Shown piece after piece: positions 18,722 to 56,433 of a stretch of 64,000 nucleotides of DNA (position 1 is its first letter; each line of letters opens with the position of its first letter). Under the pieces are notes generated by a model. The model worked only from the letters and a program-made list of their open reading frames with translations, searched no databases and was not told the origin of the DNA. The position numbers and the translations under genes were made by a program. The DNA lies in contig NZ_FZNY01000002.1 in NCBI RefSeq assembly GCF_900188275.1, forward strand, positions 1 to 64,000, given 5' to 3'. The stretch comes from Dokdonia pacifica. GTDB lineage: Bacteria > Bacteroidota > Bacteroidia > Flavobacteriales > Flavobacteriaceae.

Positions 18722-19056
18722 TAGGAAATTGCGAGATAATGTGGTTGGAAAGCCTTTTAGGTTTGCTTAAAATTCGCGTATATGATAATAATCCTGCAAG
18801 ATTTTTTTCTACGGCATTCTTGCAAGCTAGTCACAACAGCTTAAAATTTCTCTGTGAGTAAATTTCTAAGCCCTTGTTCTAATTGTGCTATGATTCAACT
18901 TTTTTTTATTTGCACTGTTCAATAGTATTTAGAACTTGCTTTAAAACCTGTTATTATCAAGAATATGTAAGAATAATTATTATTTAGTTGAAAAAAAGTG
19001 TATATTTAACTAATTGTAAGTCAGTTTTTTAAATTAACCAATTAAATATTTATAAC

Positions 19057-19290
19057 ATGAAAATTGAAGTCAACACTGATAATGTAGATGCTTTGAAAGA
19101 TGCTGCATTAGAATTCTCTTCCCGCGAAACCGTTACAGAATCTCTGTCAAAAAACGCTCAGGAAACTCTTAACAAATTAGGTATTAGCGTAGACGCCGTT
19201 ACAGCTAAAGCGATCGAATCAAAAGCAAAGTCATTAAAGGCTAGTGATCTTTCGAAATCTGCTGCATCAATTGTACATATTGATCTTTAA
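19057..19290 (+). CDS. Candidate RiPP precursor peptide (77 aa)
   Basis: This small gene opens a tight plus-strand operon with two radical SAM enzymes. The peptide begins MKIEVNTDNVDALKDAALEF, is rich in Ala, Ser, Lys and Leu, and ends SAASIVHIDL. It has no Cys, Trp, Tyr or Gly-Gly cleavage site. It has one Gly, one Phe and one His (in the C-terminal VHIDL). A helical N-terminal half could serve as leader, and the Lys/Ser-rich second half as core. I do not recognise a family. The precursor call rests on size, position and the hairpin directly after it. The ATG at 19057 is preceded by an AT-rich leader without a Shine-Dalgarno sequence, normal for Bacteroidota. Confidence 0.72.
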   Translation: MKIEVNTDNVDALKDAALEFSSRETVTESLSKNAQETLNKLGISVDAVTAKAIESKAKSLKASDLSKSAASIVHIDL

Positions 19291-19299
19291 AATATTAAT

Positions 19300-19332
19300 A
19301 AACAATTTGGTTTTTTTAAAACCAAATTGTTT
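19300..19332 (+). terminator. Hairpin between precursor and first radical SAM gene
   Basis: A 15-bp perfect stem (AAACAATTTGGTTTT and its complement) with a TTT loop lies 9 bp after the precursor stop. It can act as a partial terminator or 3' stabiliser, making precursor mRNA more abundant than enzyme mRNA. It ends 15 bp before the ATG of the radical SAM gene. Confidence 0.8.
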
Positions 19333-19347
19333 AAACTATTCGTATTT

Positions 19348-20358
19348 ATGTTTTCTAGAACACTAGATGAACTAGTAGTTCATCTTACGAAGTTTTGTCC
19401 ACTTGAATGTGATCATTGTAATGTAAGTGCTAGTAAATTATTGAAAGAAGATATTGAATTTAATAAACTTATGTCTATAATAAAAGATGCTAAGGAATTA
19501 AATTTCAAAACAATAAGTTTTGCAGGTGGTGAACCTTTTGCTAGGAAAAAATTACTCATTTCGGCTATAGAATATTCAAATTCTCTTAATCTTAAAACAA
19601 AAGTAGTTACTAGTGCTTTTTGGGGAATAAATCCAGATCATGCTATAAATTACCTTTCAAAGTTCAAAAATGTGGGGTTACAGGAAATTATATTTTCCTA
19701 TGATGACCCTCATGCGGCTTATTTAAAAGAGAATATTGTTATAAACGCTGTAAATGCAGCATTACATTTAGGAATTAAGGTTACAATTCAAGTTGCTGTT
19801 GAACCAGATTCAGTAATTGATAAAGAATATGTTCAAAAATTGCTTGATGAAAATTGCAAAAATTCTGACCTAGTAGTAATTAGTCAAGCACTTATCAATA
19901 GCACCGGTAGAGCGTTAGATAGTTCTGATATTGATCGTCGATTATCAAGGAGAAAAGATCATAGAGCTTTTAAAGGCCCATGTTCCTCTGTAATTAAACA
20001 AACTACAGTTCATACAGATGGTTCAATTGTTCCGTGTTGTGGAGTGGTTCCTAACCTTGAAACAATGCAAAAAGGTACTTATGGTAAAAAATCTTTATCC
20101 AAAATAATAGAAGATTCTCGAAACGATAATTTATATCGTTGGATAGCCTTACAAGGACCTGTGAGTCTTTTATGTCAAATAACAAAAGATAATGAATCTC
20201 CTCTTACCGAAAATGACTTTGACGGTATTTGTGATGCCTGTAATACTTTATTTACCTCCCCTAGCCTATTGAAAAAAGCTAGAGATATGTCAGAGATTAT
20301 GAGCTCTACTTTTGAACTTCAAGAAAAAATTTATAATGCAATGAACTGGTCTCATTAA
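19348..20358 (+). CDS. Radical SAM/SPASM-like peptide maturase 1
   Basis: A 336-aa enzyme. I set the start at ATG 19348 because the upstream TTG lies inside the hairpin. The radical SAM cluster motif is C17-x3-C21-x2-C24 (FCPLECDHC), followed by the SAM-binding GGEP motif at 60-63 (SFAGGEPFARK). The C-terminal part has a SPASM/twitch-like set: C-x12-G-x4-C (from GPCSSVIKQ to DGSIVPCCG) and a later CDAC. Such enzymes install carbon-carbon or carbon-heteroatom links in peptides using auxiliary iron-sulfur clusters. The 57-bp gap after the precursor and four same-strand enzyme genes support a role in maturing that peptide. The chemistry is not predictable. Confidence 0.85.
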   Translation: MFSRTLDELVVHLTKFCPLECDHCNVSASKLLKEDIEFNKLMSIIKDAKELNFKTISFAGGEPFARKKLLISAIEYSNSLNLKTKVVTSAFWGINPDHAINYLSKFKNVGLQEIIFSYDDPHAAYLKENIVINAVNAALHLGIKVTIQVAVEPDSVIDKEYVQKLLDENCKNSDLVVISQALINSTGRALDSSDIDRRLSRRKDHRAFKGPCSSVIKQTTVHTDGSIVPCCGVVPNLETMQKGTYGKKSLSKIIEDSRNDNLYRWIALQGPVSLLCQITKDNESPLTENDFDGICDACNTLFTSPSLLKKARDMSEIMSSTFELQEKIYNAMNWSH

Positions 20359-20394
20359 TTCATTAAAATTTAAAAGGAAAAATAAAATAATAAT

Positions 20395-22308
20395 ATGATC
20401 GAAGTACGACCGTATGGTGTAAAATGTAATATTCGTTGTAAATATTGTTATCAAGAAAATGAACGAAATTATGAAGGAGCCATACCAAAAATTGACTTAG
20501 ATTTATTAAAAAATAAATTAATTAATCTAGATCAACCTTTTTCTCTTTTTGGAGGAGAACCTTTATTGATGCCTATAAATGAAATTGAGAAACTATTTAA
20601 ATGGGGATATAAACGGTTTGGTGTAAACCAAGTTCAAAGTAATGGAATACTAATTAGTGATGAGCATGTAGATTTATTTAAACGTTATAATGTAAAAGTA
20701 GGTATTTCTGTTGATGGACCATTAGAACTAAACCATGCAAGATGGGCCGGTAGTTTAGAAAAAACAGATAAAGCATCAATAAAAACCCATCAAGCAATAG
20801 AAAAGCTCTGTGATGAAGGGATTTTTACTTCTATTATATTAACATTACATAAAAATAATGCATCTCCCAACCTATTAAATAAATTATCTGATTGGATTTT
20901 AAACTTAGAAGAAAAAGGGATTACAATGGTTCGATTACATTTATTAGAGGTCGATTCATTGATAGTACGTGAACAACTTGCTTTAACAGAAAGTGAATCA
21001 ATTGAAGCATTATTACATTTTCAAAAACTAGAGCAAAATCACCTTAAAACTCTTACGTTTGATATTTTTCAAGAAATTGAAAAATTGCTTCTAGTAGATG
21101 ATGATAACACAGGTTGTGTATGGCATGCTTGTGACCCACTAACTACTAATGCAGTACAAGGTTTAGAGGGGAATGGATATTTATCAAATTGTGGACGATC
21201 TAATAAAGACGGCGTCGGTTTTTTGAAAAACAAAGATATTGGTTATGATCGTTATATTTCACTTTATCAAACTCCACAGGAAGAAAACGGCTGTAAAGAT
21301 TGTAGATTTTTCTTAATATGTAAGGGGCAATGCCCTGGTACATCAATTAATGGTGATTGGAGAAATAGAAGTGAGCATTGTGAAATTTGGAAAGAAGTAT
21401 TTGAGGTTATTGAACAAAAGATTCAATTTTCAGGACAACTACCAATATCTCAACATCTGAAAAGAAAAGAATTAGAAAACCTTAATTTATCCCATTGGAT
21501 GAAACAAAAAAATGTTCTTTTAAAAGACCTTGTAAAGGAATGGAAAGAGCAAGAAAATATAGTGGGAAATATCAACTTGAATGAAGGTTTTATAAACCCA
21601 AGTAAATTGAGACTTTCATGGGCAAGTAAAGCCGCACAAGAAAAGTACGAACATGCTCTTTATTCTTTAGTACAAAGAATCAATAACTTTAAAATAAATG
21701 CTGTTTACAAAAAAATCCTAGATACTGTATCTATAAGAATTCCACTTGAAAAACTGAATGAATACAGTTCAAAAATAAAAGATCTAGGTTTAAACAGTAA
21801 TGCTATAGATTTAACAAAGAATTTGTTTTCATCTAAAACTTCAAATGAAACACAACTTGATATTAATCTTCAAGTTTCTAATAGTCAATCAGATAAGAAT
21901 AGTAATATAGACGATAATTTTAATAAATTACTTTCCCCTAAACAAGAAAAAGTTTTTGATTATGAAAATCAGTTATTTAATATTTTACTAGCTCCAATTG
22001 GTCTATCCGTTATTCCTTGGGATTTGACAAACTATAAGGATTCTGATGATACCTCTACAAAATTAATAGAATTCTTTATGATTAATGAAAGTGAAGAAAA
22101 CATTCAATTTCTTAAATCAATTTTAAGTTGGCCCATTGAGCTTTCTTGTCTTCACGGGATTGCAGAATGTAAAACGCCAATCTTCAAATTTACATTTGGA
22201 ACAGAATATACCTCTACCCTTATCAAACAAAAACACTACGGTAAGGTATGGCCAGATAAAGGTGCTAACGGACTTAGATTTCCATTTAGAAACACTAGAT
22301 TTAATTAA
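20395..22308 (+). CDS. Radical SAM/SPASM enzyme with large extra C-terminal domain
   Basis: A 637-aa enzyme. The first cysteine motif comes unusually early: C11-x3-C15-x2-C18 (KCNIRCKYCY), with GGEP at 53-56 (LFGGEPLL). A full SPASM domain follows. Its diagnostic C-x2-C-x5-C-x3-C appears in GCKDCRFFLICKGQCPG, and a last Cys in SEHCEIW completes it. This part, about residues 1-345, resembles anSME and peptide-maturing enzymes. Residues about 345-637 are an additional region of no recognised family. It has a helical section, a low-complexity Asn/Ser linker (NSQSDKNSNIDDNFN) and a compact C-terminal block (APIGLSVIPWDLTNYKD to FPFRNTRFN). The extension may bind precursor or partner. It lies 36 bp after the first maturase. 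Confidence 0.85.
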   Translation: MIEVRPYGVKCNIRCKYCYQENERNYEGAIPKIDLDLLKNKLINLDQPFSLFGGEPLLMPINEIEKLFKWGYKRFGVNQVQSNGILISDEHVDLFKRYNVKVGISVDGPLELNHARWAGSLEKTDKASIKTHQAIEKLCDEGIFTSIILTLHKNNASPNLLNKLSDWILNLEEKGITMVRLHLLEVDSLIVREQLALTESESIEALLHFQKLEQNHLKTLTFDIFQEIEKLLLVDDDNTGCVWHACDPLTTNAVQGLEGNGYLSNCGRSNKDGVGFLKNKDIGYDRYISLYQTPQEENGCKDCRFFLICKGQCPGTSINGDWRNRSEHCEIWKEVFEVIEQKIQFSGQLPISQHLKRKELENLNLSHWMKQKNVLLKDLVKEWKEQENIVGNINLNEGFINPSKLRLSWASKAAQEKYEHALYSLVQRINNFKINAVYKKILDTVSIRIPLEKLNEYSSKIKDLGLNSNAIDLTKNLFSSKTSNETQLDINLQVSNSQSDKNSNIDDNFNKLLSPKQEKVFDYENQLFNILLAPIGLSVIPWDLTNYKDSDDTSTKLIEFFMINESEENIQFLKSILSWPIELSCLHGIAECKTPIFKFTFGTEYTSTLIKQKHYGKVWPDKGANGLRFPFRNTRFN

Positions 22309-22346
22309 TTCTATTAAAATCTAAAACTATTTTAATAAAAATAATT

Positions 22347-23228
22347 ATGCATGATCCATTAATTGATAAAACAATTCAATATTTAAATTGTTTAAGAGAT
22401 GATAATGATATATCAATTAAACATATTGTTTTAGGTTCTTATTTTACGGTCGTTGAACTTTCTGACAATAATGTTGGTGCGGTAATGTCATACTATAATG
22501 CGAATCACTTAATTAATGGTGGTTTAATGCATATTATAAATGATGTAATAGCAAACGATCCACAATTACTGACTTCTAAAGACGGCTTCTCCCATTCAAT
22601 TTTTAATGATTGGAAAAATGATCATCAATTCAGTTTAGCTTGTGCATGCATTCTTTGTGCCCTTACGAGCGCTTTATCTCAACCTTATCTAAGCACAAAT
22701 AAAACCAACGAATTTATTATACATAAAGAATTTCCTTATCATTCTAAAATTTTTGATAGCAAGTCTGCTTTAGTAATTGGTTTTGGAGGGTATTTACCAT
22801 TTTTAATTAAAGAAACATCAATAAATAATATTTATGTGTGTGATTTATCTTACAAGACGCGTTATGAAGAAATGAATAGTATGTTGCGTGATTGGCTTAT
22901 AGATCAGCCTGAAAAAAAGATTACTTTTTTTGATAGTTTTGAAGACCATGCTGATAAAGAATACGACTTATTATCAATTACAGGATCAAGTCTTTGTAAT
23001 GGCACACTTTCACAAATACTTAATGCACATAAAAATAGTTTTAATATTGTGCAAGGGCAATCTGCTGGTATTTTTCCAAAATTCCTTTTTGAAGCTGGTG
23101 TAGACATGGTTTCGACAACTATAAAACCCAGGGCTATTGTCAAAGATGCTCAAAAAGACTTAAGTGGAAAATTTTTAACACAATACTTTGAAGGAGGATT
23201 ACCTTTTATTTACCTATTACCAAACTAA
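22347..23228 (+). CDS. DUF4213/DUF364 (putative heavy-metal chelation) protein
   Basis: The 293-aa protein has an enolase-like DUF4213 N-terminal part (about 1-115, with VVELSDNNVGAVMSY and FSLACACILCALTSAL). A Rossmann-like DUF364 half follows, with a glycine-rich strand at SALVIGFGGYLPFL, the signature LLSITGSSLCNGTLSQIL and the late IFPKFLFEAGVDMVS. Structures of the family suggested metal or cofactor binding, but no reaction is established. Its place between a radical SAM enzyme and a PLP decarboxylase (38 and 15 bp gaps) implies a role in the same pathway, perhaps handling a metal or the finished small molecule. That is inference. Confidence 0.8.
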   Translation: MHDPLIDKTIQYLNCLRDDNDISIKHIVLGSYFTVVELSDNNVGAVMSYYNANHLINGGLMHIINDVIANDPQLLTSKDGFSHSIFNDWKNDHQFSLACACILCALTSALSQPYLSTNKTNEFIIHKEFPYHSKIFDSKSALVIGFGGYLPFLIKETSINNIYVCDLSYKTRYEEMNSMLRDWLIDQPEKKITFFDSFEDHADKEYDLLSITGSSLCNGTLSQILNAHKNSFNIVQGQSAGIFPKFLFEAGVDMVSTTIKPRAIVKDAQKDLSGKFLTQYFEGGLPFIYLLPN

Positions 23229-23243
23229 TGTATTATTAATAAA

Positions 23244-24407
23244 ATGCAAAAAAAACTAGAAATTTTACCTTTTATAAATGATTCTGACACTTATTCAGGT
23301 GATGTGAATTCAAGATTATTATTGTATTGTTGTTCATATAAAAATCCAGAACCAGCTTTTGTTTTTGACTTAGAACGAATAAGATCAAATTATAAAATCA
23401 TTCAACAAGCTTTTGAGGGGTGCAATGTTCATTATGCTCTAAAAGCAAATTCAGAAGTAAGAATTTTAAAAACACTAAAAGATAATGGTGCTAGCTTTGA
23501 AACAGCTAGTATTGGTGAAGTGAAGAGACTTCTCGAACTAAAAGTTAGCCCTAAAAAAATTATTTTCAGCAACCCCTGTAAAAGCAAAGAAGATATTGTG
23601 AATCTTGCTAATATGGGAATTAGATACTTTAGTTTTGAAAATACAAAAGATTTGGATAGGTTAATAAATCTCGTTCCAAAAGGGGTTTTTGTATTACGTC
23701 TTAACCTCAATGAAATAGATCCTATTCATATAAATTATGGAGCTACATGGGACTATATAAAAACTAAAATTATACCTAATCCTAGATATGCAAGCGCAAT
23801 TCAAGGAATTACGTATTATGGTATACATGATATAGGTCTTAAGTCTTGTGAGAAGTTACTTTCAAAAAATAAATTGCCTAATGTTAAATTTATTAATATT
23901 GGTGGAGCAATTCAATATGATGGTCTAAAAGAAGATTTGGATGCTGGTTATTATAATGGGGGATTAATTTTTTTTACAGAAAAATTAAGAATTCTAAAAG
24001 AGAAATTTAAAATAGATATTATTGTTGAACCTGGTACAGCTGTATTATACAATGCATGTAATGCGATAGGTAGAATAAAATATGTAAACAATCTTTGTAC
24101 AGGAACTTTGAATTATCATCTAGATTTAGGCCCAACTATAGGGCTTAGAAAACCACCTAGTGTTGCCTATGTTTTAAGGGAAAGCTCTTTAGAAATAATT
24201 ATGAGTAAAGCAAATATATTAGATGCTGCATGTTCTCAGAGGATTATTGGTAATATAGGAAGTCATGAACGTTTTCATGAAGGAGATCGATTCATTTTCC
24301 CAAACGTAGGAATGTATTCTATTATGTATATATGTGATTTTCACCTTTTACAAATTCCTGAAATATTATTTTTGCCATTAAGAAATACTGCTGTAAATAA
24401 TAATTAA
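23244..24407 (+). CDS. Fold-type III PLP-dependent decarboxylase
   Basis: A 387-aa enzyme of the ornithine/diaminopimelate decarboxylase superfamily. The PLP-binding Lys lies in HYALKANSE (about residue 70), the barrel shows the usual SIGEVKRLL and FINIGG strands, and the C-terminal active-site Cys is in LDAACSQRI. The phosphate-binding loop reads VEPGTAVLYNA. This is closer to the EPGE of carboxynorspermidine decarboxylases than to the EPGR of ornithine or diaminopimelate decarboxylases, so substrate specificity is uncertain. A family member, SbnH, decarboxylates an amino-acid conjugate in staphyloferrin B synthesis, so action on a pathway intermediate is plausible. It is the last gene of the operon, 15 bp after the DUF364 gene. 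Confidence 0.82.
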   Translation: MQKKLEILPFINDSDTYSGDVNSRLLLYCCSYKNPEPAFVFDLERIRSNYKIIQQAFEGCNVHYALKANSEVRILKTLKDNGASFETASIGEVKRLLELKVSPKKIIFSNPCKSKEDIVNLANMGIRYFSFENTKDLDRLINLVPKGVFVLRLNLNEIDPIHINYGATWDYIKTKIIPNPRYASAIQGITYYGIHDIGLKSCEKLLSKNKLPNVKFINIGGAIQYDGLKEDLDAGYYNGGLIFFTEKLRILKEKFKIDIIVEPGTAVLYNACNAIGRIKYVNNLCTGTLNYHLDLGPTIGLRKPPSVAYVLRESSLEIIMSKANILDAACSQRIIGNIGSHERFHEGDRFIFPNVGMYSIMYICDFHLLQIPEILFLPLRNTAVNNN

Positions 24408-55734: not shown

Positions 55735-56433
55735 TTAAATCCTATCTAAAACTATTTTTCTATACGATTTTCCGATGGGAAGTTTAGTGTCATTTTGTAA
55801 CACAATTTGGTTACCATCTATGAGTTTCAGATGATTAAAATTGATGATATATGATTTATGAATTCGTAAAAATTGCTCAGGCAATTTTTCTAAAAAATCA
55901 GATAGTGTTTGTGGAGTTAAAATCATTACATCTGTAAATATCTTAATGTAATTTCCATAAGCCTCAATATGATATATGTTTTCAAAATTGAGCTTTATAA
56001 TTTTCTTATCGCTTTTTACAAAAATAGCATTGTTTGCAGGTTCGTTTTCAACTACAATAGGTTGATTTTGGGTCGTAGTTTGTTGTTGTACTTTAAAAAC
56101 TGCCTGTATAAAACGTTCTAATGAAAACGGTTTTAATAAATAGTCGGTTACAGAAAGCTCAAAACCTTCTACAGCATATTCAGGATAAGCAGTAGTTATG
56201 ATTACATGGGGTTTTTGCTGTATGGTCTTTAATAAACTTAAACCTGAAAGTTTAGGCATATTAATATCTAAGAACAAGATGTCTACAGGTTTTTCTTGTA
56301 ATATTTGCATTACTTCAAATGCATTTTTACAGGATGCGACAAGCTCTAAATTTTGAATTTCTTGTATGTAATTTTCCAAAATTTGACGTGCAATTGGTTC
56401 ATCATCAGCTATTATACATTGTAGTGCTTTCAT
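55735..56433 (-). CDS. LytTR family response regulator
   Basis: The 232-aa protein has a receiver domain with phospho-acceptor D56 (DILFLDINMPKLSG) and acidic D10/D11. A LytTR domain (about 130-232) follows, with ENIYHIEAYGNYIKIFTD and FLRIHKSYIINFNHLK. I chose the ATG at 56433, 1 bp after the kinase stop. A TTG 12 bp upstream would overlap the kinase gene by 11 bp and is less likely. It forms a two-component pair with the kinase encoded upstream. Confidence 0.92.
   Translation of the reverse strand: MKALQCIIADDEPIARQILENYIQEIQNLELVASCKNAFEVMQILQEKPVDILFLDINMPKLSGLSLLKTIQQKPHVIITTAYPEYAVEGFELSVTDYLLKPFSLERFIQAVFKVQQQTTTQNQPIVVENEPANNAIFVKSDKKIIKLNFENIYHIEAYGNYIKIFTDVMILTPQTLSDFLEKLPEQFLRIHKSYIINFNHLKLIDGNQIVLQNDTKLPIGKSYRKIVLDRI

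Follow-up and report, generated by a model that had tools for sequence, protein, structure and literature searches.

Five plus-strand open reading frames (ORFs) occupy positions 19057-24407 of a 64,000-nucleotide stretch of the Dokdonia pacifica genome (contig NZ_FZNY01000002.1, positions 1 to 64,000; hereafter the window), with intergenic gaps of 57, 36, 38 and 15 bp. They encode a 77-aa peptide, two radical S-adenosylmethionine (SAM) enzymes, here termed rSAM1 and rSAM2, a DUF4213/DUF364 protein and a protein resembling pyridoxal 5'-phosphate (PLP)-dependent decarboxylases. A preliminary description had read this arrangement as a candidate pathway for a ribosomally synthesised and post-translationally modified peptide (RiPP), and its account of the ORFs, gaps and enzyme motifs was confirmed. 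The features are as follows (dN/dS, ratio of non-synonymous to synonymous substitution rates; loci from other genomes are numbered L).

19043..24389, plus strand: whole block common to the Aquimarina locus L020 (blastn, 83.8% identity, no adjoining similarity)
19057..19290, plus strand: precursor, 77 aa, with a predicted leader of ~65 aa and C-terminal ...AASIVHIDL; homologues in L020, L028 and L034; dN/dS 0.205
19276..19284, plus strand: His-Ile-Asp (HID) codons, proposed rSAM2 site; HID invariant in 4/4 precursors
19299..19333, plus strand: RNA hairpin between the precursor and enzyme genes, 16-bp perfect stem, z -5.5
19348..20358, plus strand: rSAM1, EpeE/YydG-like, 336 aa, CC pair at residues 230-231 (TIGR04078, 101.4 bits; PDB 8ai6)
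20395..22308, plus strand: rSAM2, 637 aa, core 1-345 and C-terminal partner domain 346-637 (from 21430), called from models and SPASM cysteines
22347..23228, plus strand: DUF4213/DUF364 protein, 293 aa (Pfam DUF364, 47.4 bits; dN/dS 0.172)
23244..24407, plus strand: fold-III PLP decarboxylase-like protein, 387 aa, with the YALKAN lysine and the GDRFIFPNVGMY C-terminal motif (PF02784, 94 bits)

The precursor lacks Cys, Trp, Tyr and GG, as had been stated. Its single His, on which the preliminary description was silent, lies within the C-terminal HID. The four precursor homologues measure 77-79 aa and are 41-81% identical to the window peptide, with just 26 invariant columns in their alignment. 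Among these columns is the HID of the tails, which read AASIVHIDL, AAAIIHIDL, AASVVHIDI and AAAVVHIDF (consensus AA[SA][VI][VI]HID[LIF]). Downstream of the precursor gene, the hairpin was matched in stability by 0 of 200 shuffles. Its counterpart in L020 lies at the corresponding position, with a 14-bp stem and two compensatory pair changes relative to the window, and its role is probably that of an attenuator, terminator or mRNA stabiliser. A longer, 343-aa ORF for rSAM1 begins with a TTG at 19327; because this codon falls inside the hairpin, the ATG at 19348 is the likelier start.

Both radical SAM enzymes carry CX3CX2C (CPLECDHC and CNIRCKYC) and GGEP motifs, and both exceed the Pfam Radical_SAM cut-off of 29.5 bits (38.8 and 47.8). 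The SPASM half of their earlier assignment stood less well: the Pfam SPASM score of rSAM1 falls below the cut-off (16.7 vs 21.5), SPASM was not listed for rSAM2, and the cysteine pattern of the latter (C300-X2-C303-X5-C309-X3-C313-X15-C329) was recognised by eye. In the fourth protein, DUF364 lies above its Pfam cut-off of 23 and DUF4213 slightly below its own (20.2 vs 23.5); its predicted structural model (pLDDT, predicted local distance difference test, 44) was too poor for use. The proposed fold-III decarboxylase was borne out by the Orn_Arg_deC_N match and by alignment with ornithine decarboxylase chains (E 1.5e-15) at the YALKAN region and the C-terminal GD...NMGAY segment. Weaker PDB matches of this protein included BtrK and L-glutamyl-carrier decarboxylase chains (2j66, E 8.1e-6; 7ru7, E 9e-6).

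Conservation and distribution of the block

The five window proteins were searched by phmmer against 23 loci around rSAM2 relatives (L020-L042). An uncultured Aquimarina (L020) encodes all five in identical order, which supports the RiPP-type operon that had been proposed, and matches to the precursor, rSAM1 and rSAM2 were found in an Alcanivoracaceae metagenome-assembled genome (MAG; L028) and in Marinicella (L034). Co-occurrence of the whole set was confirmed in one further genome, the other two having these three genes only at the locus. At 4/4 precursor loci, rSAM1 and rSAM2 adjoin the precursor. All five genes, the precursor included, are under purifying selection (dN/dS between the window and L020 of 0.205 for the precursor, 0.088 for rSAM1, 0.162 for rSAM2, 0.172 for the DUF364 protein and 0.138 for the PLP protein). 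Because the block recurs in Aquimarina with purifying selection on all of its genes, the five-gene arrangement is more than chance. Similarity between the two DNAs stops at the block edges, and we regard the cassette as probably a mobile five-gene unit, as part of the overall explanation given below. Elsewhere, the sole further match between the window and L020 is an unrelated 305-bp segment with 66% identity (window 56120-56423, L020 13205-13508).

The gene set around the precursor is not fixed across lineages. In the gammaproteobacterial version (L034 6995-12971, L028 1949-7956), rSAM2 is split into two genes; neither the Marinicella genome nor the Alcanivoracaceae MAG has a DUF364 match genome-wide, and no PLP gene is present at either locus. 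Marinicella encodes an extra B12 radical SAM protein that scores above the TIGR03975 cut-off (RiPP radical SAM C-methyltransferase; 600 vs 282 bits), together with a partner protein with weak methyltransferase matches (best 23 bits). The L028 counterparts of this pair are 58% and 42% identical to them.

Genome searches for the cassette were samples, not a census. Among 148 relatives, the precursor profile matched the window's own genome and none of the other 147; of the 9 genomes of rSAM2 relatives it matched 3, with a single copy each. All of these genomes carry both radical SAM genes, so peptide homologues without them, which would have spoken against the preliminary description, were not encountered in these samples. 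The DUF364 protein was found in 1/148 sampled genomes and rSAM2 in 1/395 (with at most three candidates scored per genome). A single-protein search with rSAM1 retrieved 3/148 genomes at 1e-8, namely the window's own and two partial matches, while its profile matched 2/397 genomes (own and one distant), 3/200 in the order of Marinicella and 2/66 in the genus of Aquimarina. Among 395 genomes of the phylum, five had a DUF364 match at E<=0.001, three of them above the cut-off (window included), and inspection of L012, L014 and L015 revealed no cassette. Plasmid homologues of both radical SAM enzymes and of the PLP gene were generic relatives without a cassette, and the DUF364 protein had no plasmid match.

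The two radical SAM enzymes and their cellular relatives

The best model for rSAM1 is TIGR04078 (YydG), at a score that leaves it outside that equivalog (cut-off 300). Its best PDB match is EpeE/YydG (8ai6, E 3.2e-18), with an alignment that spans residues 17-313 in the numbering of the 343-aa TTG form. The PCCG of rSAM1 aligns with PCCS of EpeE, and C231 stands opposite the second Cys of the EpeE pair, which we take to be Cys223 on an assumed offset in the PDB chain numbering. The CC pair is invariant in the rSAM1-type sets examined (6/6 and 4/4). In EpeE, Cys223 is the proposed H-atom donor and the target residues are Val and Ile (PMC8326336, available text). Because rSAM1 resembles EpeE/YydG over nearly its full length and keeps the proposed donor cysteine, it most likely uses C231 to epimerise one or more residues around HID; to name the Val and Ile residues beside HID as its targets would be a guess. 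YydG-like radical SAM genes also occur on plasmids (L005, L006, L007 and L010, from Halocatena, Streptomyces, Lactococcus and Thermus), each immediately preceded by a hypothetical gene of ~170-300 aa that has no clear Pfam assignment. Another genome from the same family as the window encodes a distant relative of rSAM1 (L101 1438-2716) downstream of an 88-aa ORF that resembles a leader but lacks HID.

Among named models, the anaerobic sulfatase maturase scores highest for rSAM2 (77 bits vs a cut-off of 349). Cyclophane formers follow, likewise under their cut-offs (AmcB, 66.5 vs 425; YhhB, 56 vs 445; GrrM/OscB, 55.6 vs 310), and DynA is also among the best named models. rSAM2 is thus similar to the known three-residue cyclophane-forming enzyme families without being a member of one. 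Its partner domain recurs in 18 of the 23 loci, either fused or as the next gene, being missed in L036, L038, L039, L040 and L042. DUF483 weakly matches 3 of the 19 aligned partner-domain members (best E 7.3e-6), and at two haloarchaeal loci the gene after the radical SAM gene gives weak DUF483 matches (E 0.0038 and 0.014). An AlphaFold2 model of the domain (mean pLDDT 80) retrieved no PDB match at E<=0.001, the best being 0.04.

A scan of genome contigs with rSAM2 and two haloarchaeal relatives gave 191 loci, of which 80 were retained and divided into the rSAM2 family (L020-L041, 22 loci) and a control of the other radical SAM matches (L042-L099, 58 loci). Motifs were scored as the highest count per 80 aa in all six frames, with a threshold of at least 5. 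For H.[DK], 16/22 family loci and 2/58 control loci reached it, and for H.[DKN] the figures were 16/22 and 3/58; control locus L060 (count 8) is a possible remote family member. Three of the six family loci under 5 (L020, L028 and L034) carry the HID precursor instead. The motif-rich partners include proteins of ~870 to 1,360 aa with repeat tails, as well as peptides of 70-90 aa. Offset counts were made on stretches picked by H.[DKN], so the HxD excess in them arises partly by construction and carries no weight. L029, L030 and L031 have H-x-K tails instead of H-x-D, and because their rSAM2-type enzymes form one clade (100/100), the enzyme branch agrees with the third residue of the motif. The grouping of the window with L020, L028 and L034 is not strongly supported (86/88), and L037 and L039 form long branches. 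Genes for alpha-ketoglutarate (aKG)-HExxH peptide beta-hydroxylases lie beside some HxD/HxK systems (L023 5950-6816, L029 8004-8570, L031 8150-8950): three of the four partner genes scanned with TIGR04267 pass, that of L024 failing (28.6 vs 40).

Proposed pathway and alternatives

The best explanation overall, in which we have moderate confidence as a whole, is a mobile RiPP cassette. An encoded precursor with a conserved core lies beside co-conserved modifying enzymes, as in RiPP loci, and a modified peptide product is predicted. The 77-aa precursor would supply the leader and the short C-terminal core, with leader cleavage and export presumed to follow. rSAM2, with its attached partner domain, would act on HID, most likely joining the His imidazole to the Asp beta-carbon in a three-residue cyclophane of the triceptide type; we propose this crosslink because rSAM2 relatives associate with proteins dense in H-x-[D/N/K] and the HxK loci form one clade. 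Epimerisation by rSAM1 would affect the same tail. The DUF364 protein and PLP decarboxylase may perform a further, lineage-specific step, in place of which Gammaproteobacteria would use the B12-type radical SAM protein of the C-methyltransferase family. The operon, its co-conservation and selection, the invariant HID, the motif association of the rSAM2 family and the similarity to EpeE are all shown by sequence.

The claim that no known RiPP logic applies is not supported. As in triceptides (HaaB, ScaB, YhhB, YxdB, OscB, XncB), a radical SAM/SPASM enzyme accompanies an aromatic-x-X3 motif, into which HID fits in 4/4 precursors; His is known there as the aromatic partner and Asp as X3, and the three-residue cyclophanes described in PMC11002830 include C3(Tyr)-Cb(Asp) as well as two from His, C2(His)-Cb(Ala) and C2(His)-Cb(Arg). 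Unlike in triceptides, the pairing is H-x-D (H-x-K in the family), which does not appear in the available text of that source; the enzyme has an extra C-terminal partner domain, its relatives lie near large repeat proteins, and the crosslink is predicted. The His-Xaa-Ser system (HxsABCD) also combines a His-rich motif protein with radical SAM maturases (PMC9062424, available text), but the rSAM2-family motif is H-x-D/N/K rather than H-x-S. Membership in that system was rejected, HxsB being absent from the best 25 of 53 models for rSAM2 and the motif being HID. EpePAB comprises a peptidase and transporter. The resemblance of rSAM1 to the epipeptide system EpeX/EpeE (YydF/YydG) of Bacillus, with its conserved cysteine pair, stops short of the gene content: no EpePAB-type genes were found among the ORFs of the block and flanks (ORF list and Pfam), and the cassette has a second radical SAM enzyme, the DUF364 protein and the PLP protein.

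Several observations weigh against the proposed cassette pathway. The chemistry assigned to each radical SAM enzyme and the residues it would modify are inferred, as are leader removal, export and a function for the last two genes. Neither rSAM1 nor rSAM2 belongs to a characterised equivalog, because all named models score far below their cut-offs, and the breadth of the YydG-like superfamily, most of which is uncharacterised, makes epimerisation a weaker prediction than HID as the target. Genes for a protease, an exporter or immunity are absent from the five-gene block, and only 2/4 precursor loci (the window and L020) have the DUF364 and PLP genes. Most rSAM2 relatives are paired with a large repeat protein, a partner very unlike a 77-aa peptide that bears one motif; L035, L038 and L040 show neither repeats nor an HID peptide; and HxD repeats could be metal binders or the substrate of a different chemistry.

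The last two genes suggest another product altogether: the PLP decarboxylase and DUF364 protein would convert a crosslinked His-Ile-Asp, once excised, to a small cofactor or metallophore, in the manner of pyrroloquinoline quinone (PQQ) or mycofactocin. Both genes lie inside the block under purifying selection, a PLP decarboxylase requires a free amino acid and would suit a released product, the block has no exporter, and the genome context of DUF364 is linked to metal transport and chelation (PMC2954201, available text). The idea, already raised in the preliminary description as a scaffold for a small-molecule or metal-binding product, found no direct support, and we consider it unlikely. PQQ- and mycofactocin-type pathways include a PqqD-like RiPP recognition element and peptidase or oxidase partners; Pfam detected no such component among the five proteins, though rSAM2 could still contain a diverged recognition domain. 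The gammaproteobacterial genomes with the same precursor have no DUF364 match, nor a PLP gene at the locus, and the large proteins associated with rSAM2 relatives cannot be such scaffolds. That same absence would suit two independent pairs standing side by side, a peptide/radical SAM pair and an unrelated DUF364/decarboxylase pair, which is quite improbable given that the five genes move as one block on one strand, closely spaced and with common borders in two genomes.

The chemistry of rSAM2 itself might also differ, with HID undergoing another change at His or Asp (e.g. dehydrogenation, epimerisation or a different crosslink). The anaerobic sulfatase maturase as nearest model, the diversity of radical SAM/SPASM chemistry and the lack of a close characterised enzyme allow for this; we nevertheless judge it improbable, as the spacing rule of the family (an aromatic residue, any residue, then D/N/K, with Y or F sometimes replacing H) is that of three-residue cyclophanes and the nearest models include several cyclophane formers. 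BtrK decarboxylates an amino acid on an acyl carrier, and its presence among the weak matches of the PLP protein, along with a precursor length near that of carrier proteins, would fit a 77-aa carrier whose bound amino acid is decarboxylated. This is very improbable: conservation is concentrated in the HID tail, and the carrier reading was rejected because Pfam shows no carrier domain and the four homologues share no Ser motif for phosphopantetheine attachment. A role in anti-phage defence was likewise rejected, PADLOC giving just generic radical SAM matches to viperins and one 15-bit match.

The literature searched holds no description of an H-x-D or H-x-K cyclophane or of this gene set, which is weak evidence of novelty as most subscription journals lie outside its coverage. 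The cassette would offer a testable target, a single His-Ile-Asp, in a RiPP pathway seemingly without the usual modification site. It would also pair two radical SAM chemistries on one short tail and bring into a RiPP block two protein types not encountered in any RiPP pathway of that literature, DUF364 and a fold-III decarboxylase.

Relatives of rSAM2 in viruses

A scan of viral contigs retrieved at least 79 loci with rSAM2 relatives (L114-L192). With a threshold of at least 6 H.[DKN] per 80 aa, a dense H-x-[D/N/K] stretch was present in 76/79 of the viral matches listed and in 0/13 controls, these being distant rSAM1 relatives from an alignment-based scan of viral contigs; a single-protein scan of viral contigs with rSAM1 had no match. 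The 79 loci collapse into 64 clusters at 95% identity, 63 of which have a motif-dense stretch. The three loci without such a stretch are L116 and L121, which have little or no upstream DNA, and L137, which is rich in F-x-N instead. The motif lies in an ORF ending no more than 200 bp upstream in 47 of the 76, farther upstream in 27 and in the tail of the radical SAM protein itself in two; the L154 match, probably artefactual, lies in a low-complexity ORF at a distance of 5.4 kb.

Three Thermus phages carry an rSAM2 homologue (46-49% identity; 47% in Cumys). In Cumys (L194 3955-7185), the radical SAM gene follows baseplate and tail-collar genes and a gene for a 343-aa protein with 54 H-x-[D/N] motifs, and the module includes a DUF483 protein, a family that weakly matches the partner domain of rSAM2. 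The Cumys/phiMa module of a radical SAM enzyme, a DUF483 protein and an unknown protein was suggested by its authors to modify DNA (PMC11437467, available text). In Cumys the third gene of the module is that of the 343-aa protein (Cumys_13), whose 54 motifs point to protein modification rather than DNA modification.

Tentatively, and somewhat short of an even chance, rSAM2 may be part of a large, unrecognised family of protein-modifying enzymes that is widespread among phages and introduces crosslinks into H-x-[D/N/K] repeats, possibly stapling tail proteins. The window cassette would then be a cellular offshoot whose rSAM2 targets one terminal HID in a short peptide, with an epimerase and a DUF364/decarboxylase pair, the latter of novel RiPP chemistry, as additions. 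If so, many phages would possess radical enzymes for proteins dense in H-x-D/N, some beside baseplate and tail-fibre genes, the reading of such radical SAM modules would change, and the wider family may matter more than the cassette. In L115, L172 and the Thermus phage phiLo (L193 4995-6443), the radical SAM enzyme has a C-terminal H-x-D-rich tail of its own, as if self-modifying, and phiLo has an additional 75-aa ORF on the opposite strand with 15 H-x-D-type motifs.

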